Source: Sphingobacterium sp.
GTDB lineage: Bacteria > Bacteroidota > Bacteroidia > Sphingobacteriales > Sphingobacteriaceae
Length of the DNA stretch: 64,000 nucleotides
Direction: 5' to 3'
NCBI GenBank assembly: GCA_029239355.1
Contig: JAQZAZ010000009.1
Span: 35,929-99,928, forward strand
Shown: positions 2,102-55,767 of the stretch, piece by piece
Position numbering within the stretch: the first letter of the stretch is position 1
Layout: each line of letters begins with the position of its first letter
Notes under the pieces: generated by a model
The model's database searches: none
What the model was told of the DNA's origin: nothing
Seen by the model: the letters and a program-made list of their open reading frames with translations, nothing else
Translations under genes and position numbers: made by a program

Positions 2102-4393
2102 ATGAATATATTAACTCCTTTTCAAAAAAGAAAGACGGCAAGGGTCGATTCGGAGATTTTTAGTGTTTCCAGACGTGACTTTTTAAAAACCAGTGGCCTG
2201 CTTACCGGTGGACTGATACTCGGCGTTAGTTTTTTTAGCTGTGACAGTAAAGGTAAGAAGCTGGCAACTTTGGCTCCCAATGTCTATCTGAGCGTAGCTT
2301 CAGATGGCAAAGTAACGATTGTCGCCCATCGATCAGAGATGGGACAGGGGATTCGAACCTCGCTTCCGCTGATCATAGCTGATGAAATGGGGGCCGATTG
2401 GAATAAGGTGGAAATTATACAAGCCGAAGGAGATGAAAAGAAATATGGAAATCAAAATACTGATGGTTCATTCTCGGTACGGATGTTCTATAAACCCATG
2501 CGGGAGGCTGGAGCCATTGTTAGGTTATTGCTCCTGCGTGCTGCCGCCAAAGAATGGCAGATTGACGTAACTAAGTTAGATACCCAAAATGGACAGGTTA
2601 TCCAACTTGGATCAAGTAGGAAGAAAGATTTTGGGGATCTGGTGCAAACGGCCTTGTCCCTGCCAGTTCCAAAAGTTTCCGAGATCAAGCTGAAGGACAG
2701 GCAGCACTTCAATATGATTGGGAAAGAAACCCCGATTATTGATTTGCACGATATTGTAACAGGCAAAGCAGTTTTCGGGATCGATGCTATTGTCGAAGGA
2801 ATGAAAATCGCCGTGATCAAGCGCTGTCCTGTGGTTGGGGGAAGTGTAAAGTCGGTCAACGATCGTAAAGCACTTGCTGTACCTGGTGTCGTCAAAGTGA
2901 TTACAATCAAAGGTGCAGGCCTGCCAGCAACCCTGTCAAGACCACTTAGTGGCGTGGCCGTGATTGCTGAAAATACTTGGGCAGCGATCAAAGCACGCGA
3001 TCTATTAGAGGTGGAATGGGAATTGGGTGCAAATGCGAGCTACAACTCTGCCATACAGATTGAAGAGCTCAAGCAGGTGGTTGGGCAGGAGGGAACGCTT
3101 CGGCGTAAGCGGGGCGATTTCGATGCTGCCAAGGCGAATGCAAAAAAAGTGATTGAACATACCTATATAGCACCCTACCTGGCGCATGCAACCATTGAAC
3201 CCCCCTGCGCGCTGGCTATCGTGACAAACGGAAGCTGTGAAATATGGGCATGCACACAGAATCCCCAAGGCGCACGTGATGCTGTGGCCAAGGAGCTGGG
3301 AGTTGCCGCGGAAAAGGTAAAAATGAATGTTACACTGCTTGGAGGAGGATTCGGGCGAAAGTCTAAACCTGACTTTATACTCGAGGCGGCTATTCTTGCC
3401 AAGGAATCCGGTCTGCCTATTAAAGTACAGTGGACACGGGAAGATGATATCCGTCACGATTACTATCATGCAATGAGCGTGCAACGCATTGTGGCGACCA
3501 TCGATAGCCAAAATAAATTGAGCGGCTGGGCACATCATATTGCCAATCCATCCATCTCTGCGACGGAAGACCAAGCCGTTGTACAACCCAGTGATGGTGA
3601 ATTAATGTTGGGCGCCTCGGATTTCCCGTACAACGTGCCAGCTATCAATATTGCAACACATGATGCAAAGGCACATCTGCGGATTGGTTGGTTGAGATCG
3701 GTTCGCAATATTCCGCAAGTATTTGCCGCAGCAACCATGCTGGACGAAATTGCAGAAGCAAGAGGCCTGGACGCTGTAGCCAATGCATTGGAATTGCTTG
3801 GAGAAGATCGCCATATTACTTTCGAACAAGAATTAATCAAGACAACCTATCCCAACTATGGTGAAAAGATCGAAGACTATCCCTGGGAAACCAGTCGAAT
3901 GAAAAAAGTGATTGAACGGGTCGCTAAAGAATCGGGTTGGGGAAAAAGTATGCCTGCAGGTAGCGCACTTGGCTTTGCTGCACATAAAAGCTTTCTGACC
4001 TATGTCGCTTGTGTAGTGGAAGTAAAAGTTAGTCAGGATAAAAAAATTAGTATCCCCAATGTGTACTATGCAGTTGACTGTGGGTTGGCGGTCAATGTGG
4101 ACCGGATCAAATCGCAGTTTGAGGGTGGGGCACAATTTTCAGCCAGCTTTGCGCTAAAAAGCGCGATTACGGTAAAAAATGGGGAGGTAGAGCAGAGTAA
4201 CTTTGACGGCTATCAGATTATCCGGATGCCTGATTCGCCTAAACAGATCCATGTGTATATCCTAGATAGTGATGCGAAGCCTACGGGCGTAGGCGAGCCT
4301 CCAGTACCACCGTTTACGCCAGCGCTCTGCAATGCAATTTACGCTGCTACTGGAAAACGGATCTATACACTTCCAATTGATCTGACTGTTTAG
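2102..4393 (+). CDS. Molybdopterin-binding subunit of an isoquinoline-1-oxidoreductase-type hydroxylase (IorB-like), Tat-exported
   Basis: 763 residues. A twin-arginine motif SRRDFLK (23-29) precedes a hydrophobic stretch ending FFSC47, so it is probably exported folded through Tat; Cys47 could also be a lipoprotein attachment site. Mo-pterin binding segments include GGGFGRKSKPD in the middle and GVGEPPVPP at the C-terminus, where Glu732 corresponds to the catalytic base of the xanthine oxidase family. Length and the duplicated N-terminal domain layout fit IorB. It follows the 2Fe-2S gene by 24 bases. Family members hydroxylate N-heterocycles or oxidise aldehydes; the substrate and the periplasmic electron acceptor are unknown. 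Confidence 0.92.
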   Translation: MNILTPFQKRKTARVDSEIFSVSRRDFLKTSGLLTGGLILGVSFFSCDSKGKKLATLAPNVYLSVASDGKVTIVAHRSEMGQGIRTSLPLIIADEMGADWNKVEIIQAEGDEKKYGNQNTDGSFSVRMFYKPMREAGAIVRLLLLRAAAKEWQIDVTKLDTQNGQVIQLGSSRKKDFGDLVQTALSLPVPKVSEIKLKDRQHFNMIGKETPIIDLHDIVTGKAVFGIDAIVEGMKIAVIKRCPVVGGSVKSVNDRKALAVPGVVKVITIKGAGLPATLSRPLSGVAVIAENTWAAIKARDLLEVEWELGANASYNSAIQIEELKQVVGQEGTLRRKRGDFDAAKANAKKVIEHTYIAPYLAHATIEPPCALAIVTNGSCEIWACTQNPQGARDAVAKELGVAAEKVKMNVTLLGGGFGRKSKPDFILEAAILAKESGLPIKVQWTREDDIRHDYYHAMSVQRIVATIDSQNKLSGWAHHIANPSISATEDQAVVQPSDGELMLGASDFPYNVPAINIATHDAKAHLRIGWLRSVRNIPQVFAAATMLDEIAEARGLDAVANALELLGEDRHITFEQELIKTTYPNYGEKIEDYPWETSRMKKVIERVAKESGWGKSMPAGSALGFAAHKSFLTYVACVVEVKVSQDKKISIPNVYYAVDCGLAVNVDRIKSQFEGGAQFSASFALKSAITVKNGEVEQSNFDGYQIIRMPDSPKQIHVYILDSDAKPTGVGEPPVPPFTPALCNAIYAATGKRIYTLPIDLTV

Positions 4394-4431
4394 CAAATCA
4401 ATTTTCTTTAAGAGTGCGAATAAAAGATATA

Positions 4432-4457
4432 CGAGAGCCTGTACAACTAGGCTCTCG
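4432..4457. terminator. Inverted repeat between convergent genes
   Basis: CGAGAGCCT (4432-4440) and AGGCTCTCG (4449-4457) form a perfect 9-bp stem with an 8-base loop. It lies between the ends of the Mo-subunit gene (4393) and the convergent MobA-like gene (4503). Only a short T-containing tail follows, so it is a plausible bidirectional terminator rather than a textbook one. Confidence 0.55.
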
Positions 4458-4502
4458 CTATTTACTGACAAGAAAGTAGATCAACGCGCTAAAGCGAGTA
4501 CC

Positions 4503-5153
4503 TCAGCGGCCCTGAGATTTGTTGGCTATAATCGCTTTTGCATACCTGGCCTCATCTTGTGTATTGACATTTGTGAGAATATTTGCATCTCGAGGACCAA
4601 TTAGCGAGACCTGTTGTTGAATTAATGCCTGACGCGGAGATAACTTATTTTGTGCGATTAGCTGTTTGAGGATTGCGTAGCCCTTTGGCTCCCATATCGT
4701 ACATAGTGGTTCTGGAAGGCCATTTAGCGGATTTGTAAATGCCGTTGCTATTTTTTTTGAATCGCGTCTTTGGATCAGAAAATCGATAGTCGCGCTGTCA
4801 ATGAGAGGCATATCACAGGCGAGTACCAGCCAAGCTCGATTGGGCTCCAAATCAAATGCCGTCAATATACCTCCTAAAGGGCCAATATTTGCATAGACAT
4901 CGGGCAGAAACTTATAAATCTGATCTCCTTCAAGTTTGTTGCTCATCTCTACCTCCTGTTCGGCACGACAGGAAATATAAACGGTTTTACAATAAGCTTT
5001 CAGCAGGTCTACTAAATAATAACACTGTTCTTTGTCGTACCATTGGATCTTTTCTTTTGGGATGCCCATCCGCTGGCTTTTACCCCCGACAAGTACTAGG
5101 CCATTTAATAGTGGGTATATATTTTCATTCGAAACCATTGTATTTGTTATCAA
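4503..5153 (-). CDS. mobA: MobA-like molybdenum cofactor nucleotidyltransferase
   Basis: 216 residues with the NTP-transferase fold signature GLVLVGGKSQRMG near the N-terminus, a following lysine in MGIPKEK, and the metal-binding LACDMPLID segment. MobA attaches GMP to molybdopterin and the related MocA attaches CMP; sequence alone does not settle which. Xanthine-oxidase-type hydroxylases such as the neighbour often use MCD, so MocA-like activity is possible. It is convergent with the Mo hydroxylase operon. An internal ATG at 5138 is an equally good start. Confidence 0.8.
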   Translation of the reverse strand: MITNTMVSNENIYPLLNGLVLVGGKSQRMGIPKEKIQWYDKEQCYYLVDLLKAYCKTVYISCRAEQEVEMSNKLEGDQIYKFLPDVYANIGPLGGILTAFDLEPNRAWLVLACDMPLIDSATIDFLIQRRDSKKIATAFTNPLNGLPEPLCTIWEPKGYAILKQLIAQNKLSPRQALIQQQVSLIGPRDANILTNVNTQDEARYAKAIIANKSQGR

Positions 5154-5370
5154 TTAATCTATTTTAATGAAGTTACGTAATTTAACTGGACCAGAAAAAT
5201 AAGGCGCCTAGGCTCAGAAATGATTGCTTCTACCTATATTTGTCGCTGCCAGCAATGCGTTATTTGCTAATAATGAAAAACGATATTATAAGTCATTTTG
5301 TTAAGCAAATTTTAATACTTTTAGCAAGTTTGAAATACGGAAAAATTTATACCTGTTAAAAACTAAGAGA

Positions 5371-6225
5371 ATGCAGTACAAAAAAAATATTCCGGTTCGA
5401 ACTTTGCCCAAGGAATTTGGCAATGGCATTGCTGTTTCCAAAGTTTCACCCGAATCGTTTTGGGAAGATGAAGAAACTATGCAGGCGCATCGGCATGATT
5501 ATCATTTCTTTGTTTTACAGAAAAATGGAGTCACACTTACTGAAATAGATTTTGAACAATACCTTGTTGATAAGCCTACTATCTTTTATCAATCACCCAA
5601 TCAAGTGCATAAAGCACTGAAGGTAGAGAACATAGAAATGTTTATGCTTATTATTAGTAATGAAAACATTCATTCCGATTATTTAAATGTGTTGCAAAGT
5701 ATCACACCTTTAAAACCTTTAGCGATTGATTCAAAAGATCTTGATGTTATTGAAAGGACCTATAATCTGTGTATTGATTTTTATAAAAGAACTCCCGACA
5801 AATTGTATTTTTCCCTACTAAAAGATAGCACTAATGCTTTGGTAGCTTTACTTATTTCCTTGTATCTAAAATACACCAAAACTCCAGCACTACTCTCCAG
5901 ATTTGAACGTATTAATAAAGCCTTCTTCCTGTTGTTAGAACGAAAATTTCATATCTTGAAACGTCCTTCGGAGTATGCCGCCCAATTTAATATTTCGGTT
6001 TCCTACCTCAATGAGTGCGTGAGAAATGCGACAGGTTTTTCAGTTTCATATCATATACAGCAGCGTATTGTTTTGGAAGCTAAACGGTTGCTTTATCACT
6101 CCGATATGTCAGTTAAAGAGATTGCTTTTCAATTGGGCTATGAAGACTATCCTTATTTTTCTCGGTTGTTTACTAAGGCATGTGGCATGAGTGCGAAATT
6201 GTTTCGTTTAAAAAACCGCGATTAG
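5371..6225 (+). CDS. AraC-family transcriptional regulator
   Basis: 284 residues. The N-terminal half carries a cupin-like sensor segment with HRHDYHFFVLQ. The C-terminal ~100 residues hold the paired helix-turn-helix of AraC/XylS proteins, ending in the typical VKEIAFQLGYEDYPYFSRLF signature. It is followed in the same direction by a siderophore-interacting-type reductase, which it may control. A TATATTTG box at 5235-5242 is a possible promoter but lies 129 bases upstream. The effector is unknown. Confidence 0.9.
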   Translation: MQYKKNIPVRTLPKEFGNGIAVSKVSPESFWEDEETMQAHRHDYHFFVLQKNGVTLTEIDFEQYLVDKPTIFYQSPNQVHKALKVENIEMFMLIISNENIHSDYLNVLQSITPLKPLAIDSKDLDVIERTYNLCIDFYKRTPDKLYFSLLKDSTNALVALLISLYLKYTKTPALLSRFERINKAFFLLLERKFHILKRPSEYAAQFNISVSYLNECVRNATGFSVSYHIQQRIVLEAKRLLYHSDMSVKEIAFQLGYEDYPYFSRLFTKACGMSAKLFRLKNRD

Positions 6226-9246: not shown

Positions 9247-9950
9247 ACACTAAATTTAGAACTGAGCGCATTGAAATCATGGACGATTTTTCGCTCGAGG
9301 GAGAGGAACTTCAGACGACATTAAATAGACTATCCAAAATCAATAAGTTCTTGGGTGGTCATAACATTACATTGGATGGCGTAAAGAAATTGTTATCGAA
9401 AACTGATATTTCCAAAACAGTGACAGTTCTAGATATCGGCTGTGGAGGAGGGGATATGTTGCGTATGTTGAGTGATTTTGGTGCTAAAAATAATATTGAT
9501 TTTAAAATGCTTGGAATAGATGCGAATTATTTTACTATCACCTATGCTCAAGGTTTATCAAAAGGATACTCCAATATATCGTATAGCTGCAAGGACGTAT
9601 TGGGAGAGGATTTTTCAACTAAACAATTTGATATTGTATTATGTACTCTTACATTACATCATTTTGGCAATGAGCAAATTATTGATTTGATGGGGCGTCT
9701 TTCCAATATGTGTAAGCTTGGTATCATTGTCAATGATTTACAGCGAAGTAAAATTGCATATCGACTATTTCAAACCATTTGTGTTGTTTGTGGGTTAAAT
9801 AGAATGACCAGGGAAGATGGGCTTGTATCCATACTTCGGGGCTTTAAAAAATGTGAGTTGGAGCAATTCGCTAAGAAACTGCATTTGAGAAATTATAGCA
9901 TCCAATGGAAATGGGCTTTTCGTTACCAGTGGATAATTTTTGATATATGA
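9237..9950 (+). CDS. SAM-dependent methyltransferase of the type III PKS operon
   Basis: 237 residues. Class I methyltransferase motif I is visible as VLDIGCGGGDMLRML near residue 64, followed by an acidic motif II (LGIDANYF) and the motif IV region FDIVLCTLTLHHF. The start overlaps the flavoprotein stop by 10 bases and its own stop overlaps the PKS start (ATGA), indicating translational coupling. SrsB in the comparable S. griseus alkylresorcinol pathway methylates the ring, and a similar C- or O-methylation is the likeliest role. Confidence 0.85.
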   Translation: MGLNTKFRTERIEIMDDFSLEGEELQTTLNRLSKINKFLGGHNITLDGVKKLLSKTDISKTVTVLDIGCGGGDMLRMLSDFGAKNNIDFKMLGIDANYFTITYAQGLSKGYSNISYSCKDVLGEDFSTKQFDIVLCTLTLHHFGNEQIIDLMGRLSNMCKLGIIVNDLQRSKIAYRLFQTICVVCGLNRMTREDGLVSILRGFKKCELEQFAKKLHLRNYSIQWKWAFRYQWIIFDI

Positions 9951-10999
9951 GCGTTAAGATAATAACTGTTGCAAAGCAACTACCCAAATATTCTTGTACT
10001 ACTGCTGAAATTCTTCCGTTATTGGAAAGGTGGCTTCAAGGGCAGGATACACGTTTCATCAAAAAAGTAAAGAAGCTATTTGAGGGTGCCACTATAGACA
10101 GGAGGTATGCCATTATGGAGCCGAAAGAGGTTTTCACAGCCACATCTTTTGAAGAAAAAAACGATATTTATTGCCGCGAAGCGACGATTTTGGCTGAATT
10201 AGCACTTCGCAAAGCACTAGCCAATGCCGATTGGGGGCCACAGTCGCTGGATTATATCATTACTGTAAGCTGCACAGGGATCATGATACCCTCATTAGAC
10301 GCCTACCTCATCAATAAGCTAAGATTACGACAGGACATTGTTAGGCTGCCTGTCACTGAGATGGGCTGTGTTGCTGGAGTTTCTGGTATTATTTATGCCA
10401 AAAATTTTTTGCAAGCCAATATCGGCAAACGAGCAGCAGTAATAGCTGTCGAAGCACCCTCTGCCACCTTTCAATTAGCAGATCTTTCAATGTCCAATAT
10501 GGTAAGTGCTGCTATTTTTGGTGATGGAGCGGCCTGCTGTCTACTTTCATCCCATGAAGCAGACGCAGGGCCGGCGATCCTTGACCAACGGATGTATCAT
10601 TTTTATGATGTCGAAGATATTATGGGCTTCAAACTTACCAATAGTGGGATGCAGATGATATTGGATGTTGATGTACCTAATGTAATTGCATCGCATTTCG
10701 ATGCAGTTATACATCCATTTTTAGCCAGTAATAACCTAGGAGTGCAAGACATAAAATATATGATTTTTCACCCTGGTGGTAAAAAGATCATAGCAACGAT
10801 AGAGAAGATTTTTGCAGTATATGGTAAAGATATCTCTGACACTAAAGCTGTGCTATCACAATATGGAAATATGTCAAGTGCTACAGTACTCTATGTGCTT
10901 GAACACATCATGGAGCGCGCTCCTCAAGCTGGTGAGTTGGGATTAATGTTAAGTTTTGGTCCCGGGTTTACGGCACAGAGTGTCTTATTGCAGTGGTGA
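9947..10999 (+). CDS. Type III polyketide synthase (chalcone/alkylresorcinol-synthase family)
   Basis: 350 residues, normal length. The catalytic triad is complete: Cys141 in TEMGCVAGVSG, His275 in MIFHPGGKK and Asn308 in LSQYGNMSSA. The C-terminal SFGPGFTAQ matches the GFGPG loop. These enzymes extend an acyl starter with malonyl units and cyclise it to resorcinols or pyrones without an ACP. Here the gene is embedded among fatty-acid-type genes, so the starter may be delivered from the operon's own acyl carrier protein, as the Azotobacter Ars system does from a dedicated FAS. The product is inferred, not demonstrated. Confidence 0.92.
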   Translation: MSVKIITVAKQLPKYSCTTAEILPLLERWLQGQDTRFIKKVKKLFEGATIDRRYAIMEPKEVFTATSFEEKNDIYCREATILAELALRKALANADWGPQSLDYIITVSCTGIMIPSLDAYLINKLRLRQDIVRLPVTEMGCVAGVSGIIYAKNFLQANIGKRAAVIAVEAPSATFQLADLSMSNMVSAAIFGDGAACCLLSSHEADAGPAILDQRMYHFYDVEDIMGFKLTNSGMQMILDVDVPNVIASHFDAVIHPFLASNNLGVQDIKYMIFHPGGKKIIATIEKIFAVYGKDISDTKAVLSQYGNMSSATVLYVLEHIMERAPQAGELGLMLSFGPGFTAQSVLLQW

Positions 11000-11016
11000 T
11001 TTAATAGAAAAGAGCG

Positions 11017-11454
11017 ATGGAGTTAAATGATATTATTGCAAAATTGCCCTACAGAAATCCATTTTTATTTGTGGACGAGTTGCTCTATGTGGATGATAAT
11101 AGCATTATCGGTAACTATACGTTCAGTGAAAATCTCGATTTTTTTAGAGGACATTTTTATGGTAATCCCGTTACTCCCGGGGTAATTTTAACCGAAACGA
11201 TGGCTCAGATAGGTCTGGCCTGCTTCGGCGTCTATTTGCTAGGTAGCGAAGCCAGTACCGAAACTGCCATGGCGTTGACATCAACGGAAATCCAATTTTT
11301 AAAAACGGTGTACCCCAAAGAAAAGGTTACTGTAATTTCTAACAAAATATACTTCAGATTCGGTAAACTGAAATGTGCAGTTACGATGAAAAACGAAGCA
11401 GGGCAGGAGGTTTGTAAAGGAATGTTAGCAGGTATGATAATCGGCGGAATATGA
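11017..11454 (+). CDS. FabZ/FabA-like hotdog dehydratase (3-hydroxyacyl-ACP dehydratase family)
   Basis: 145 residues. The hotdog signature FFRGHFYGNPVTPGVILTET contains His46 and Glu60 at the positions of the FabZ catalytic pair. It starts 17 bases after the PKS stop and its own stop overlaps the ketosynthase start (ATGA). It probably dehydrates a beta-hydroxyacyl intermediate on the ACP of this operon. A thioesterase-like role is less likely because both dehydratase residues are intact. Confidence 0.85.
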   Translation: MELNDIIAKLPYRNPFLFVDELLYVDDNSIIGNYTFSENLDFFRGHFYGNPVTPGVILTETMAQIGLACFGVYLLGSEASTETAMALTSTEIQFLKTVYPKEKVTVISNKIYFRFGKLKCAVTMKNEAGQEVCKGMLAGMIIGGI

Positions 11455-49260: not shown

Positions 49261-49711
49261 TTTGGCGCAAACAATTATGAGTGCTGCAGTTGCGCATTTG
49301 TGATTAATATTTAGATTTCCATACCCTTACCCTATGATTTAAAGGGAACTTTAGTATTTAAAAATTGGCCTTGCATACTCCATTTTAGTAGACGCAGCGC
49401 TACAATCATGTCAACTTATTTTAAATTAAAATAAGCCACTATGTTACGGGAGAGAAAGTAATGAATCCTTTTGGTGCTTCAAATCCAGTTAAATGCTAAA
49501 TTTATGTAACTTTAATTTTACAATAAATTCCATATTTTAATATTCAAAACGTTAAAATACTATTTACGAAAGATTCTTATAATCAAAATATTATCTTTTT
49601 TTTACTCAGTACTGTTTGGAAATACATTTTTTTTTATTGAATTGATCTGATTACAGTCTACAGAACTTGAACTATATCTTTATATTTAGGGCAGATCTAA
49701 CTGGGGAGAAC
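49261..49711. other. AT-rich spacer before the LytS-type kinase
   Basis: No coding frame or repeat stands out. The final 200 bases are very AT-rich (around 49500-49700) and should contain the promoter of the kinase gene; TATCTTTA near 49675 is one base off the -7 consensus. Confidence 0.35.
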
Positions 49712-50845
49712 ATGATATCGGTAACTGAATTCTTTCAGAATTATAATCCTGTGAAGCGCGTAGTTTTTCATTTGTGCTTCTGGTTTGTCGTTTTAGGTAT
49801 GCAGTTTATTGGATACCAGCGTATCGATCCCAGTAATTCCTGGTTACTTTTTTGCAAAGACATCTTTTCACTTTTATCTATATTTTATGTCACCGCTTAT
49901 ATTATAATACCTCGCTGGTTTATCCAAGGCAATTTTTTGCTATGTCTGCTATGGTTGGTTATTATTTATGCATGGTGGTCCGTACTGACTTATTGCAGTG
50001 CACTATTGACGGTTAACCTTCTATCCCCGGATGAGCGGTTGAAGAGTTATTTACTCTTTATGATCGATAAAGGAATCCTTGGCGCATTCCGAATTTCATC
50101 CATTACCGATTATCTATTGGATTTTATTTTTCTGGTTGCATTTCCTTTGACTGTTAAGATTGTACAATCTTTTATGAGCGTCAGAAATATGAAGGTCAAC
50201 CTGGAACTTAAGAATGCCGAGCTTGAGCTCAATAATGTGCAGCTCGAACTGGCTTTTCTCAAACATCAGATCAATCCCCATTTTCTGCTAAATACACTTT
50301 ACAGTATCTACGTTCTGGTATCGGATAAGGATGATCGGGGCGAGCAGAGTATGATGCGCCTCAGTGGTATGATGGTCTATCTACTACACGAAAGCAACCA
50401 GCCACAGATAGAATTATCTAGGGAGTTTCAGTTGATCCGGGATTATATAGAGTTGGAAAGGCTCCGGTATAATGAATCACTACAAATCAACCTTAATCTT
50501 GAAACAGATAATGAATATTGTACGCTCGTACCGTTGATATTTTTTCCATTCGTGGAAAATGCCTTCAAACATGGCCCCCGTACCAGCGCATCAAATGCGT
50601 GGGTGACCATCGACATATCTGTTAGAGATAATATTTTGTATATGCATGTCTCAAATGCATACCGGGAATTATCCAAACCTCAAAATTATATTGGTGGACT
50701 TGGTATACAAAACGTTCGCAAGCGGCTGGAGCTTTATTACCCTGACCGGCATACCTTCAAGACCTCTTCAGATGCTGGAATTTACTGTGTCGAACTTATT
50801 GTCGAGCTGTTGGAAAAAGAGGGTAAAAATCAGTATAACAAATAA
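49712..50845 (+). CDS. LytS/YehU-type membrane sensor histidine kinase
   Basis: 377 residues from ATG 49712; an upstream TTG at 49667 is less likely. Four membrane segments occupy about 15-155. A coiled linker (VNLELKNAELELNNVQLELA) leads to the His_kinase signature HQINPHFLLNTLYSIY, where the His of NPHF is residue 190, and then to the HATPase with NAFKHGP and GGLGIQNVRKRLE. The LytTR regulator follows 10 bases later. With the RiPP genes converging on it, the pair is a good candidate for sensing the product or its target, but this is positional inference. Confidence 0.92.
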   Translation: MISVTEFFQNYNPVKRVVFHLCFWFVVLGMQFIGYQRIDPSNSWLLFCKDIFSLLSIFYVTAYIIIPRWFIQGNFLLCLLWLVIIYAWWSVLTYCSALLTVNLLSPDERLKSYLLFMIDKGILGAFRISSITDYLLDFIFLVAFPLTVKIVQSFMSVRNMKVNLELKNAELELNNVQLELAFLKHQINPHFLLNTLYSIYVLVSDKDDRGEQSMMRLSGMMVYLLHESNQPQIELSREFQLIRDYIELERLRYNESLQINLNLETDNEYCTLVPLIFFPFVENAFKHGPRTSASNAWVTIDISVRDNILYMHVSNAYRELSKPQNYIGGLGIQNVRKRLELYYPDRHTFKTSSDAGIYCVELIVELLEKEGKNQYNK

Positions 50846-50855
50846 TTAAACCATT

Positions 50856-51557
50856 ATGTACAGCATAAAAACTATTCTTATAGAGGACGAACCGATAGCT
50901 AGAATGCGCCTCGAGAAGTTAGTCAAAAAGATCGGTATCATTGAAATTGTGGGCGTTTATGAAAATCCAACATTAGCTATTGACCTACTGAAGCAGAGTA
51001 AGATTGACCTTATCCTGTCTGATATCGATATGCCTGAGATGAATGGAGTAGCCTTCTTAAAAGGGCTTTCCCATCCACCTTTTGTGATCTTTATCACCGC
51101 TCATTATGAGTATGCTGTTGATGGCTTTGAACTCGAAGTCATTGATTATATCTTAAAACCCTTGCTGACCGAGGAACGGCTAGTGAAAGCCATAGAAAAA
51201 GTGCAGAAAGCAATTATGTTTTCACGAGGAGGTCAAGGTGAGAGCAAGTCAATTAAGGTTAAAGATCGAAACAAGACCCTATTCATTGACCCAAATGATA
51301 TCTATTACTTAAAGGCCTGGGGCGATTATATTCAGATCTATTCGGTCGAGGGAATGCAGACACTCCTTAGTACCATGAAGGAGATGGAGACGGCATTGCC
51401 TTGGGATATGTTTGCCCGGATGCACCGTTCTTACATTGTTAACTTGAAGTATATAAAAGGGGTAGAGGCGAGCAAAGTTATACTCAAAGACGGTACCGAA
51501 CTATCCATCGGATTGCAATATCGCAACCAGTTATTTACCCGAATGGGCCTTAGTTAA
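50856..51557 (+). CDS. LytTR-type response regulator
   Basis: 233 residues. The receiver (1-120) has the acidic pair in IEDEPIA, phospho-acceptor Asp56 in LILSDIDMPEMNG and Lys in YILKPLL. The LytTR DNA-binding domain spans about 135-230, with SIKVKDRNKTLFIDPNDIYY and FARMHRSYIVNLKYIKGVE. It works with the kinase encoded 10 bases upstream. Its stop overlaps the stop of the convergent lanB gene by 4 bases (51554-51557), so the transcripts must run into each other's coding strand. Confidence 0.93.
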   Translation: MYSIKTILIEDEPIARMRLEKLVKKIGIIEIVGVYENPTLAIDLLKQSKIDLILSDIDMPEMNGVAFLKGLSHPPFVIFITAHYEYAVDGFELEVIDYILKPLLTEERLVKAIEKVQKAIMFSRGGQGESKSIKVKDRNKTLFIDPNDIYYLKAWGDYIQIYSVEGMQTLLSTMKEMETALPWDMFARMHRSYIVNLKYIKGVEASKVILKDGTELSIGLQYRNQLFTRMGLS

Positions 51558-54500
51558 ACATTGATAACTTTATACTGAGGCAGCCCATATTTACCGATCT
51601 GCATCCGATAGAAATTCATCATAAAGTGGTAAATCGCAAGCTCATATAGGCGCTGGTCGCTCATAAACAATCTGTTCACAAACATGTGAATATAACTCGA
51701 CAACAAGGATTCAGCTGCTTGTGAATAGACCATTTCAGGCTCTTTGGACTTTATTAACGTGAATATTTCACTTTGCACCTGATTCATTTCCACATGGTCG
51801 GAAAGGGGGGGACTTTGCAAGACCAGTTCATCAAACCAGTGTTTTCGCAGCTTAAATTTTTGATTCAGCTGTATTCGCATCTGCCTTTCGTTGCCAAACT
51901 CATTATGGTATAAGCCGTACATCTTTTTGCAGAAATCCCGCCTTTCTACCCATGTTAACCCAGCATTTTCAAAAATACAATCGATATAATCAAATGCGAG
52001 TTTCCACCTATCATTGATTTTTTTGGATTCCTGTATTTTTTGTACAATCAGTTCGCTTTCGTAATAGAATAGCTCCTCACTTTTTTCCATACAAAGTGGA
52101 GTATATCGTTCGACCTCGCGGACGTAGGTATCAAACGAGACTTCAGCGATCTGTTCGTTTTCTAGGAGATTGCTCAGATTAGCGCTCAGACAAGATACTA
52201 CGTGATGAAAGGCCTGTTGGTCAAAGAGCTCTACACGTAGCCTGATATGTGGTCTAGGGTTATTATAGCGAATAAAAAACCACTTTTTCGCTATCTTGTC
52301 CTGTTTGAGCGTCCCAATTATTGCCGGAATATAATCGCTTAAAAGACGGTCGGCTATGCTGTGACCGCAAAAGATTTTTGCGTACACCCAGTTGCTTCCC
52401 AGGGGGAAGTTCCGTCTGAGATCAGTCACAGCAGGAGGAGTACATTCCTGTTGTGTCATCACAGCTGAATAAAAAGGAATAATCAGTTCATTTGCATATG
52501 AATGCCCAGTAATGTCCTTTACTGGAGATTTAAAATGGTCAAAGATGTTTTCTGTCAAGATGACCTCCTTTTTGGCCAGTTGTTCAAATAGCATTTCGAT
52601 GCACAGGATATTATCCAAATTGAGTAATAATTCATTGTCGCCATTAGTCAGCACTACGTTAACTGGTATCATATGCTTTTGTCTGATATCAGCGATGAGC
52701 GACCTTTTTCCCAGGGTTGTTTCAGGAATTTCTGCTATTTTGGAAAGTCGCCACTGCTCACGGCACAAAATGATATTTTTATAGCTGACCCGTGGCAGTC
52801 GAGGTTGATCTTTTAATATACCCCAGCTCCAACCAATATCGAAGCGATGATTCTGAAACTGAAAATCAGCTAAAAACTTGTATAAGTTCATACCATCGGA
52901 AAAATTATGGGCCGAGGTGAGCCGTGGCACAATGATCTGTTTGAATGTTTTAGACCACAGATATAATTTTCCAGCTTTCGCAAATACGTACAGATCATTG
53001 ATGCCGACCTGCTTTTGAACAGCGCCAGGCGTCACTTCCAAGCATATCGTTAACATTCGGATTTCAGGTCGTTGAAGGATGTTGCCCAAACGAACATCGG
53101 GTAAATAAGCAATTTCCGCCAATTGTATCCTACCAAAGTGCTCCTGCTCTTTCGCTGCAGATTTATATAGGGCATCCGATAGTTTAGGATCCAAATAAGC
53201 AAATCTTGAAAAAAGATTGCCAGAAGAAGAGCCTCCGATGTTTCCGAGATTAAAGAACATTTCCTCCGCAGATTCCCTATGCAATAAATTTCCAAACGCA
53301 TAGAAAGACTTAGGAATAAGCTGAGCCTCTGTTGGTCCGATACCCAGCAGATCCTCGTCGGTTATAATTATCTCCGAGAAATGGTTCATTGCGCTTGCGT
53401 GAAATTTTTCATTGACCAATTTCTGATATCGATGTGGTTTGTCTGGTCCAGCTATTCCGTTTGTATTTTTTAGATCAGACAGTACCTCATCCATCATCCG
53501 GTACGTATTTTTGTTGCTGCCATAACCTATACCAGCATCCACGTCGAGCGCATGCAACAGCGAAACCATACGATCACCAAATCGTTCTTGAAATGCGGCG
53601 CTGAATCGTTCAAAATCCGCCATTGGCCTAGGGTTATTCAGTGCCAATAAGTTTTGGAGCTGCTTTTCCAGTATGTTGATCACTGAATGAGGAATCTGAT
53701 TTTTAGCCATTCCGAGCAATAAGTCAGCCTGGATAAGTTTATTAGAATTCAAGTCTGAAAAATGCGCTTTAAGATATTTCGTTACTAAAATGTTGGTTTG
53801 TTGTAATTGCGTATTCTTCTGCAGTGCCTTAGCGACCGACAGCATCGTGGGTAAATATCTATTTTTTCTATCCACCTTATGAAGGACTCGTATGAGCTGG
53901 TCAACATAAACTTCGCCAATTACACCGAGCTTCAATTCCGAAGATATTAGGCCCAACTGCAACAGTTTGTCAATATATTGCGAAGCCTGTTCCTCAGTAG
54001 CACCACGCTGTTCTAGTAAACTATTGAGCATTTTATAGCTAAGCTTACCCTGACTTTGATCAAATAACGTTAATATCCGCTCCAACACTAGGGTTGAGCG
54101 CACCTGTTTTAATGTATTTCTAACATCTGTTTGCTGATAATATTTATACCAATTGCCCTGCTGATAAATTGTAGGATTGCTATAATACGTTAGTTCTTTT
54201 GCGATATCTCGATCTTTTGAGATCAGTTCAGCAATTTCGATTAAACTTCCGGCATCTAGTCGAAACGTTGCACGGTCTGTTTGGTCTCTGATCAGCGCCA
54301 GTTCGGAGCCATTATCCTTGCTTATACTGCCTAATGAAACGCCTGCAAATAGGCCAAAGGGTGTACTGCGAGTTGCCATTCGGACAGTATATTTAAAGAG
54401 CGTGCCAATGATTTTAATGGGTGTTTCGTTATTCTGACCCAACCATTTTTCTACTTCATTCAGAAAATTAGGACTAGCCAGATAGATTGCATCTCGCAGA

Positions 54501-54637
54501 CGACGATCTTGATAGATATGACGTAGTTCAGATGCAATGGCATCAAAATCCGACAGCTCCATAAGTTTGGTGATTTTCTCTAGATTGAATAGGGGGGAAC
54601 GGAGTAGGAAATAATCTTCACTAGTAAGCGCGGTCAT
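51554..54637 (-). CDS. Full-length lantibiotic dehydratase (LanB family)
   Basis: 1027 residues from ATG 54637 (MTALTSEDYFLLRSPLF), 7 bases after the receiver gene; the frame is open to 54715. The N-terminal glutamylation domain (about 1-720) carries the hallmark RMATRSTPFGLFAGVSLG. The C-terminal SpaB_C-type elimination domain (about 745-1020) begins NWVYAKIFCG and contains KKWFFIRYNNPRPHIRLRVE and YVREVERYTPLCMEKSEELF. LanB enzymes use glutamyl-tRNA to dehydrate Ser/Thr of a precursor peptide. The likely substrate is the 48-residue peptide encoded at 55097-55243. No LanC cyclase gene accompanies it. Confidence 0.9.
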   Translation of the reverse strand: MTALTSEDYFLLRSPLFNLEKITKLMELSDFDAIASELRHIYQDRRLRDAIYLASPNFLNEVEKWLGQNNETPIKIIGTLFKYTVRMATRSTPFGLFAGVSLGSISKDNGSELALIRDQTDRATFRLDAGSLIEIAELISKDRDIAKELTYYSNPTIYQQGNWYKYYQQTDVRNTLKQVRSTLVLERILTLFDQSQGKLSYKMLNSLLEQRGATEEQASQYIDKLLQLGLISSELKLGVIGEVYVDQLIRVLHKVDRKNRYLPTMLSVAKALQKNTQLQQTNILVTKYLKAHFSDLNSNKLIQADLLLGMAKNQIPHSVINILEKQLQNLLALNNPRPMADFERFSAAFQERFGDRMVSLLHALDVDAGIGYGSNKNTYRMMDEVLSDLKNTNGIAGPDKPHRYQKLVNEKFHASAMNHFSEIIITDEDLLGIGPTEAQLIPKSFYAFGNLLHRESAEEMFFNLGNIGGSSSGNLFSRFAYLDPKLSDALYKSAAKEQEHFGRIQLAEIAYLPDVRLGNILQRPEIRMLTICLEVTPGAVQKQVGINDLYVFAKAGKLYLWSKTFKQIIVPRLTSAHNFSDGMNLYKFLADFQFQNHRFDIGWSWGILKDQPRLPRVSYKNIILCREQWRLSKIAEIPETTLGKRSLIADIRQKHMIPVNVVLTNGDNELLLNLDNILCIEMLFEQLAKKEVILTENIFDHFKSPVKDITGHSYANELIIPFYSAVMTQQECTPPAVTDLRRNFPLGSNWVYAKIFCGHSIADRLLSDYIPAIIGTLKQDKIAKKWFFIRYNNPRPHIRLRVELFDQQAFHHVVSCLSANLSNLLENEQIAEVSFDTYVREVERYTPLCMEKSEELFYYESELIVQKIQESKKINDRWKLAFDYIDCIFENAGLTWVERRDFCKKMYGLYHNEFGNERQMRIQLNQKFKLRKHWFDELVLQSPPLSDHVEMNQVQSEIFTLIKSKEPEMVYSQAAESLLSSYIHMFVNRLFMSDQRLYELAIYHFMMNFYRMQIGKYGLPQYKVINV

Positions 54638-54644
54638 GGATAAA

Positions 54645-55013
54645 TCAATGCATGTTGAACATTTCACCGATACATTTCCGAAACATCTCGGGCGATATCG
54701 GTTTTTGGAGCGCATAGTGGCTACGCTCTTTCACAAATGTGGGATAGTCCCTTTTACAGATCGCAGAGGTGATCACCAAAAATGGTATATCAGCGATATG
54801 CTTCTCTAAATTCTCAATTATTCCGCCACTGACGACCAAGTCCAAGAAAAGTATATCCGTATTTCGTAGATCAGGTGCAAAACGGGTTGGATCTTCGATA
54901 TCCTTAATTGTGCCTTTGATGGATAAACTCGGAAACATTCGAATATATTCAATTATTTTCTTTATTGCCAAAGGCTCATCTTCGATAATAAGACATTTAA
55001 GGTTAGGAGGCAT
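54645..55013 (-). CDS. Single-domain response-regulator receiver protein
   Basis: 122 residues from ATG 55013 (MPPNLKCLIIEDEPLAIKKI); an in-frame ATG at 55031 is possible. All receiver landmarks are present: Glu11-Asp12, Asp58 in ILFLDLVVSGG, Thr82 in LVITSAI and Lys104 in YALQKPIS. The protein ends at the end of the receiver, with no DNA-binding domain. It most resembles the receiver half of LytTR regulators. It sits between the candidate precursor gene and lanB, so it may compete with the LytTR regulator for phosphate or modulate the dehydratase; neither is shown. Confidence 0.85.
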   Translation of the reverse strand: MPPNLKCLIIEDEPLAIKKIIEYIRMFPSLSIKGTIKDIEDPTRFAPDLRNTDILFLDLVVSGGIIENLEKHIADIPFLVITSAICKRDYPTFVKERSHYALQKPISPEMFRKCIGEMFNMH

Positions 55014-55040
55014 ATAAGTAGTCTGTAACATTAGATCAGG

Positions 55041-55084
55041 GATTAAAAAATATTGTGAGAGTGCCTACCAGTTCACTCCCACAA
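55041..55084 (-). terminator. Hairpin terminator/attenuator after the precursor gene
   Basis: On the reverse strand TTGTGGGAGTG (55084-55074) pairs with CACTCTCACAA (55063-55053) over 11 bp with one G-U and a 10-base loop. TATTTTTTAAT follows. It sits 12 bases after the precursor stop and before the receiver/lanB genes. Read-through termination here would give much more precursor mRNA than enzyme mRNA, as in many RiPP loci. Confidence 0.75.
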
Positions 55085-55096
55085 AGCACCCTACTA

Positions 55097-55243
55097 TTAA
55101 ATTATTCTTGATGACGTGATGGTTCTGATAGTTGCTAATACTTCATCTCCATCAGCGGTTGTAAACGAAGCCGGTTCTACAATACCTATAGTCTGTACAT
55201 CCAAGGCAAAATCTTCGGATGTAAAATTTTCAATATAGTCCAT
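55097..55243 (-). CDS. Candidate RiPP precursor peptide (LanB substrate), cysteine-free
   Basis: 48 residues from ATG 55243 (MDYIENFTSEDFALDVQTIG); the frame is open further up but this start follows an A-rich leader. Phe12-Ala-Leu-Asp15 matches the FNLD box that LanB recognises in nisin-type leaders. The C-terminal half is rich in dehydratable residues (Ser26, Thr28, Thr29, Thr38, Thr41, Thr43, Ser44, Ser45). There is no Cys, so lanthionine rings cannot form. The identity rests on position, leader motif, composition and the following terminator. The cleavage site is not obvious; there is no GG or PR motif. Confidence 0.65.
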   Translation of the reverse strand: MDYIENFTSEDFALDVQTIGIVEPASFTTADGDEVLATIRTITSSRII

Positions 55244-55473
55244 AACTTTATGTTTATCTGATGCAAATGTGTTTTTTACCAGGTAGACGAGAAAATTATA
55301 TCGATAGAATTGAAAATAGGTCCGACGAACGTTGATCCATGTCCGACAAAAAAATACATACCTTTGGTTAAACCCAAACAACACTTACATCACACTGGGC
55401 TACTCAACTGAATAAAACCGAACTTACTGCTTTTCAGTTTTCAGCACTTGGCGGTGAGCTACATTGCAAGTTA

Positions 55474-55767
55474 TTGGGCGATAGGGTTAAAGTCATCAAT
55501 ATGCTTATTGCCTTAGAAAGTGGAATCATCAAAGTCAAAGACGAGAAAGAGATTGTCAAATGGTTAGGGATGACCGATACAGTAAAATACGGATACCGGC
55601 CAAGTATCTATCATGATATAATGGTAAAGGAGGCATTTTCCACAATAGCTCTATACCATGTTTTCGAAAATGTGGAGCATGCTTTGATTATTCCAGTTTA
55701 TATCAGCCTTAATGTGGTGGATATTATTTTTAACAGCAATTATAGGGGCGTGAACACCGTTTACTGA
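55474..55767 (+). CDS. Hypothetical protein, possibly a truncated gene
   Basis: The best start is a TTG at 55474 (97 residues). The protein-like frame actually extends upstream to about 55390 without any ATG (QLNKTELTAFQFSALGGELH), so the true 5' end may be missing. It contains KVKDEKEIVKWLGMTDTVKY and ends with a hydrophobic stretch and NYRGVNTVY. I do not recognise it. It is divergent from the RiPP precursor and would overlap its promoter region. The rest of the 55244-55937 spacer holds the MocR promoter. Confidence 0.35.
   Translation: MGDRVKVINMLIALESGIIKVKDEKEIVKWLGMTDTVKYGYRPSIYHDIMVKEAFSTIALYHVFENVEHALIIPVYISLNVVDIIFNSNYRGVNTVY

Follow-up and report, generated by a model that had tools for sequence, protein, structure and literature searches.

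The class I lanthipeptides are among the described peptide systems closest to the locus reported here; they are recognized by a full-length LanB dehydratase, a LanC cyclase and cysteine in the precursor core, and an FNLD box is known from the leader of nisin. The linaridins are linear, rich in dehydrobutyrine (Dhb) and in some cases cysteine-free, and are dehydrated by enzymes other than LanB. Dehydration together with azoles is described for thiopeptides and goadsporin, where a split LanB is used, and for the dehydrazoles, where it is of the LanM type (PMC10676384). The locus analyzed here lies in a 64,000-nucleotide stretch of Sphingobacterium sp. (GCA_029239355.1, contig JAQZAZ010000009.1, positions 35,929 to 99,928; hereafter the window) and comprises genes encoding a cysteine-free precursor, a stand-alone receiver, a LanB and a convergent LytS/LytTR pair. 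The product of this five-gene cassette is probably a linear peptide with Dhb and dehydroalanine (Dha) residues and without lanthionine rings, predicted to be controlled by LytS/LytTR via direct repeats. An earlier note on the window had proposed a dehydrated peptide that is linear or closed by other chemistry, and this interpretation is supported.

The predicted precursor gene (55097-55243, minus strand) encodes 48 residues (MDYIENFTSEDFALDVQTIGIVEPASFTTADGDEVLATIRTITSSRII) with FALD at residues 12-15, eight Ser/Thr after residue 25 and no Cys, just as the earlier note had read it; Lys and His are absent as well, and the Ser/Thr block spans T38-S45. In a whole-genome scan, relatives were encoded in 14 of 93 Sphingobacterium genomes (own genome counted), and in all 14 the distance to the LanB match (Lant_dehydr_N) was 589-606 bp. 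Four of these precursors are of the window type (46-48 aa) and ten are of a second type (47 aa), with pooled ratios of nonsynonymous to synonymous substitutions (dN/dS; Nei-Gojobori, Jukes-Cantor) of 0.096 and 0.151, respectively. Residues F12, L14 and D15 of the FNLD-type box and T38, T41, S44 and S45 of the block were invariant in all 14 homologues, and position 43 was Thr in 12, Ser in one and Ala in one. Conservation beside LanB, retention of the box and of the Ser/Thr pattern, and a ratio below 1 had all been expected in the earlier note, and each was observed. The small gene is real, more than chance, and under purifying selection. A protein database search returned seven proteins, the query among them, the six relatives being 83-96% identical, and no curated Pfam or NCBIfam family matched the protein at E <= 1.

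The LanB open reading frame (ORF; 51554-54715, minus strand) is spanned by both lantibiotic dehydratase domains (PF04738 and PF14028), in line with the full-length enzyme that had been claimed, with complete matches to Lant_dehydr_N (E 9.4e-110) and Lant_dehydr_C (E 3.1e-56) and with PF14028 matched over positions 1-254 of 255. Of the 14 aligned relatives, the nine closest have their first residue opposite M27; the gene thus likely runs from 51554 to 54637 and not to 54715. The protein is 91% identical to a LanB of Sphingobacterium prati, and its best structure match was 9g04 (MadB; E 3.6e-52); its own AlphaFold model was weak (pLDDT, the predicted local distance difference test, 68.7; pTM, the predicted template modelling score, 0.48) and was left unused. 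In the alignment with NisB (4wd9; E 9.9e-31), read by eye, identical residues were found at Y80, R83, R87, T89, D121, D299, R464, R784, R786, R826 and H961; T89, R464, R784, R786 and R826 are likewise positions of importance in NisB. For NisB, changes of Y80 and H961 are described as abolishing dehydration and changes of R83 and R87 as lowering it, and those of D121 and D299 as having small effects (PMC4341554).

No LanC (PF05147) was matched anywhere in the assembly (5.99 Mb, 316 contigs, 91.5% complete), consistent with the earlier claim of a LanB without LanC, and the precursor has no Cys among its 48 residues, indicating that lanthionine cannot form within the peptide. Since neither the cyclase nor the core cysteine of class I lanthipeptides was found, the cassette should not be filed in that class. 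Neither of the refuting conditions given in the earlier note, a small frame not conserved beside homologous LanB genes or a Cys-bearing precursor and a LanC linked to this LanB elsewhere in the genome, was observed; the second LanB (L099, contig G000:C286, 11465-14563), which stands with a receiver, a LytTR regulator and a kinase, is again adjoined by a Cys-free candidate (10908-11066, plus strand; 52 aa, C-terminal end GDGVTQMTTKTYQ). In the genus, PF05147 was matched in 17 of 93 genomes, in 16 of them above the cut-off, and nine of the 14 precursor genomes had no match at all. In the other five, LanC adjoins another LanB (G056, G079), lies on contigs other than the precursor's (G075, G076) or is a partial match more than 1.1 Mb away (G061).

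The association between receiver and LanC was determined in 82 loci, namely the best 80 of 499 LanB-scan matches, L099 and the window. Because the phmmer searches for LanC and two-component system (TCS) genes started from a few seeds, divergent copies may have escaped them; some of the contigs, moreover, were short. A receiver adjoins LanB in 23 of the 82 loci, L008, with receiver, precursor and a broken LanB, being scored as receiver-less. LanC was present within the fetched stretch in 2/23 receiver loci versus 49/59 receiver-less loci, the LytS/LytTR pair in 23/23 versus 16/59, and an ABC exporter in 5/23 versus 24/59 (p 0.13). With a leader-motif filter that is blind to Cys, candidates were found at 20 of the 21 receiver loci without LanC, all 20 with no Cys after the leader, whereas the receiver-less loci gave 31 candidates from 9/59 loci (50/59 gave none), all 31 with at least two. 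In a FastTree tree of 95 LanBs, which carries a warning of meeting long branches, the receiver label changes 4 times, compared with 28 times when shuffled (0/500 as low). At the 22 receiver-holding loci of the named collection (L008 included), LanC is present somewhere in 15 of 21 genomes, which fits the several lanthipeptide clusters of Chitinophaga.

The convergent kinase and regulator genes (49667-51557, plus strand), absent from the earlier note, belong to the unit. The LytS-type membrane histidine kinase (49667-50845, plus strand; first ATG 49712) has a His_kinase domain (PF06580), about four hydrophobic segments and an HQINPHF motif and is found in the same place in L003-L008 and L099; the regulator (50856-51557, plus strand), convergent with lanB, combines Response_reg and LytTR domains, as in a LytS/LytTR two-component system, and holds the same position in L003-L007 and L099. 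These six loci share one gene order, with precursor, receiver and LanB followed by the convergent regulator and kinase, and the outer flanks differ. The arrangement is another one in 13 Chitinophaga loci, where kinase and regulator precede the precursor, receiver and LanB genes; the precursors there have a Thr/Ser-rich tail free of Cys and a leader LxLxKE[IV][IV]xKxD or near it, and of their 29 database relatives, hypothetical or uncharacterized wherever named, 27 have no Cys and the other two have a single Cys, located in an N-terminal extension. The conserved unit showed no dedicated exporter or protease, no immunity gene and no additional modifying enzyme. Taken together, the genes form a conserved and selected cassette that is likely functional.

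The stand-alone receiver gene (54645-55031, minus strand), noticed already in the earlier note, encodes no output domain. Its Response_reg match is weak (E 6.9e-4, under the family cut-off), and its AlphaFold model (pLDDT 85.5) has the fold of receiver domains, as its PDB matches show. The residues D18, E19, D64 and K110 are invariant across 23 aligned sequences, providing the acidic residues, phospho-acceptor Asp and Lys of a receiver domain and indicating that the protein can likely be phosphorylated. Between the receiver stop and the chosen LanB start, 10 of 23 loci have a distance of -20 to 12 bp and 13 have one of 49-383 bp; the short distances suggest that receiver and LanB expression is coupled in some members of the family.

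Upstream of the precursor start (57-107 bp), an operator candidate (55300-55350, minus strand) with three 9-bp direct repeats, TTTGTCGGA, TTCGTCGGA and TTCTATCGA, was found at a period of 21 bp. Pairs of [AG]TC[GT][AGT] exactly 21 bp apart were observed in 24 of 31 precursor upstream regions, compared with a mean of 0.7 and a maximum of 4 over 200 dinucleotide shuffles, which overstate the surprise because the motif was chosen after the sequences were read. Spacings of 42 bp (13/31), as three repeats would give, and 43 bp (4/31) also exceed every shuffle. The pairs were found in 4/4 window-type, 5/6 second-type, 2/2 L101-type and 13/13 Chitinophaga regions; in the controls, they were found in 27 of 974 regions upstream of other genes of the same loci, in 4/52 upstream of lanB at receiver-less loci and in 0/31 upstream of Cys-bearing precursors. 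LytTR-regulator operons are described with 9-bp repeats that are mostly separated by 12 bp (PMC6193735), and CoxC as binding three repeats spaced by two turns, 18-21 bp (PMC11347149). The 21-bp spacing of these direct repeats, upstream of their putative target, is that of LytTR operators. Genome-wide, a single perfect match to the first two repeats was found; the operator pattern gave one perfect and one three-mismatch match, versus two matches for the reversed control pattern. A wider regulon was therefore rejected, a single target standing out.

Several observations weigh against this reading, in addition to the late choice of the repeat motif. The cassette family is not strictly Cys-free: all ten second-type precursors carry a single Cys, which lies outside the Ser/Thr block at residue 20, the L085 precursor has one at residue 3 and the L043 candidate has one as well. 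L009 and L039 possess both receiver and LanC, with Cys-free and Cys-bearing small genes side by side, and once relatedness is counted the link between receiver and LanC comes down to four independent pairs without significance. With the chosen motif, 21-bp repeats were not found in the L099 type (0/5, the genome's second LanB included), in L009 (0/1) or in L094. In addition, the LanB frame is broken in 3 of the 14 precursor genomes (G037, G051, G087) with the small gene intact, and likewise in L008; these breaks may be decay or assembly errors. At L009 (Pedobacter cryoconitis), one Cys-free (3937-4092) and several Cys-bearing candidates (4311-5822, plus strand) were observed in one LanB/LanC/receiver cluster, which possibly bridges the two kinds.

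The broken frames bear on the idea that the locus is a decaying, non-functional lanthipeptide cluster that lost LanC, exporter and Cys. This is extremely unlikely, since the small gene is under purifying selection, LanB is uninterrupted in 11 of the 14 genomes with catalytic positions retained in the window's copy, several LanB lineages share the same make-up, and the repeats are kept. A different way to read the missing cyclase is that LanB dehydrates the peptide and Dha/Dhb are then closed by amine addition, by an outside thiol or by an enzyme encoded elsewhere, giving a non-linear product. The genes for a radical SAM (S-adenosylmethionine; 3822-5234) protein and an S8 protease (3082-3759), which lie at a distance of 6-8 kb from the genome's second LanB, the generic C39 exporters of the genome and the LanC matches elsewhere in 5/14 precursor genomes would suit it; the conserved unit, however, holds no further modifying enzyme that could be seen, 9/14 precursor genomes lack any LanC match, and the window precursor offers no Lys, His or Cys, so that we consider such closure quite unlikely.

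The small gene could also encode a protein that regulates or inhibits the kinase, the receiver or LanB, the substrate of LanB being another peptide. Its conservation is strong for the core of a ribosomally synthesized and post-translationally modified peptide (RiPP), and a leader cleavage motif was not seen. Retention of the FNLD-like box and the Ser/Thr block, the presence of other Cys-free, Ser/Thr-rich small proteins in the same slot elsewhere, and the resemblance of the Chitinophaga slot proteins' leader to that of Cys-bearing precursors all argue for a precursor instead, making a purely regulatory role very unlikely. Finally, LanB might act like a peptide aminoacyl-tRNA ligase (PEARL) and extend the peptide at its C-terminus with an amino acid taken from aminoacyl-tRNA, or might leave the peptide glutamylated. 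PEARL clusters, too, are described without a cyclase and without precursor Cys, but their enzymes as short LanBs with a glutamylation-like domain only (PMC11002830), whereas the LanB of the cassette has PF14028 in full and retains the residues opposite NisB R786, R826 and H961, leaving hardly any probability for this activity.

For the linear dehydrated peptide, which thus remains the preferred interpretation, the pathway can be outlined as follows. LanB would bind the FALD box and dehydrate T38-S45 through glutamyl-tRNA, the LytTR regulator would bind the 21-bp repeats upstream of the precursor gene, and the kinase would phosphorylate both regulators. The receiver might tune LanB or drain phosphate. 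The mature peptide might be the signal sensed by the kinase and not an antibiotic, because the unit has no immunity gene; a secreted signal would need an exporter encoded elsewhere. It is also conceivable, though unlikely, that the cassette represents a new RiPP class of Bacteroidota with a ring-less, multiply dehydrated Thr/Ser peptide as the signal for its own LytS/LytTR system, in which the phosphorylated receiver, bound to LanB or the precursor, would switch dehydration, so that the phosphorelay would gate maturation after translation.

Some further features were observed around these loci. Five C39 peptidase matches were found in the genome, all on contigs other than the cassette's; four of them (L135, L136, L138, L139) are grouped on contig G000:C41, perhaps another peptide export locus. 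A phage origin of the precursor is unsupported, because a viral contig scan with the small protein gave no relative. In the window, a 97-aa frame (55474-55767, plus strand) between the precursor upstream region and a regulator gene, which we take from its look to be MocR-like, matches the middle part (positions 84-140 of 285) of a class D beta-lactamase family of the OXA type (E 2.7e-21, well under the family cut-off) and is a fragment only. In Chitinophaga, a divergent neighbour of 286-400 aa (L016 5368-6570, L022 5260-6120, L023 5411-6544, minus strand) had been guessed from its N-terminal look to be a radical SAM partner; none of the three proteins had a Pfam match and the guess was dropped. 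In Chitinophaga niastensis (L041), receiver and LanB are separated by one more small gene (9725-9928, plus strand), which is Cys-free and has a GG-type leader.

Compared with known systems, the cassette shares with class I lanthipeptides (NisB; MadB, PDB 9g04/9g05) a full-length LanB that has both a glutamylation and an elimination domain, and with nisin an FNLD-like leader box and two-component control. Unlike them, it has no LanC match and no precursor Cys, it includes an extra stand-alone receiver, and an exporter, protease and immunity gene were not seen in the unit. The predicted product resembles linaridins in being linear and Dhb-rich and differs in the use of LanB as dehydratase. Class I clusters of Bacteroidota (L009-, L011- and L029-type) have a homologous LanB, L009 also a receiver, kinase and LytTR regulator, but they differ in having LanC and in their precursors, which contain two or more Cys beyond the leader. 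The PEARL-derived RiPPs (pearlins) and pyritides likewise combine a LanB-family enzyme with a Cys-free precursor and no cyclase; these are described as using truncated LanBs (PMC11002830), whereas the cassette has the elimination domain, a TCS and a receiver. As in the described LytTR direct-repeat systems (PMC6193735, PMC11347149), 9-bp repeats stand 21 bp apart upstream of the target; the repeats differ in their letters, and in the cassette they probably target an operon for a RiPP precursor, which also encodes a second, output-less receiver.

The family recurs in Sphingobacterium and Chitinophaga although it would be invisible to cysteine-based lanthipeptide searches, including the large survey of Walker et al. 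(2020), which is described as LanC-based and as dropping ORFs whose estimated core lacks Cys (PMC7268733). Should the peptides prove to be dehydrated, small and easily expressed cassettes would give a ring-less LanB product line in Bacteroidota. The 21-bp repeats provide a handle on the regulon and the inducing signal, and the receiver between precursor and dehydratase raises the question of whether two-component systems act on RiPP maturation, beyond transcription. In a literature search of titles and abstract openings, no report was found that brings together a full-length LanB, a Cys-free precursor, a receiver and a TCS. Relative to the known Cys-free systems of the LanB family, what appears to be new is therefore the combination of a full-length LanB with a receiver and a two-component system.

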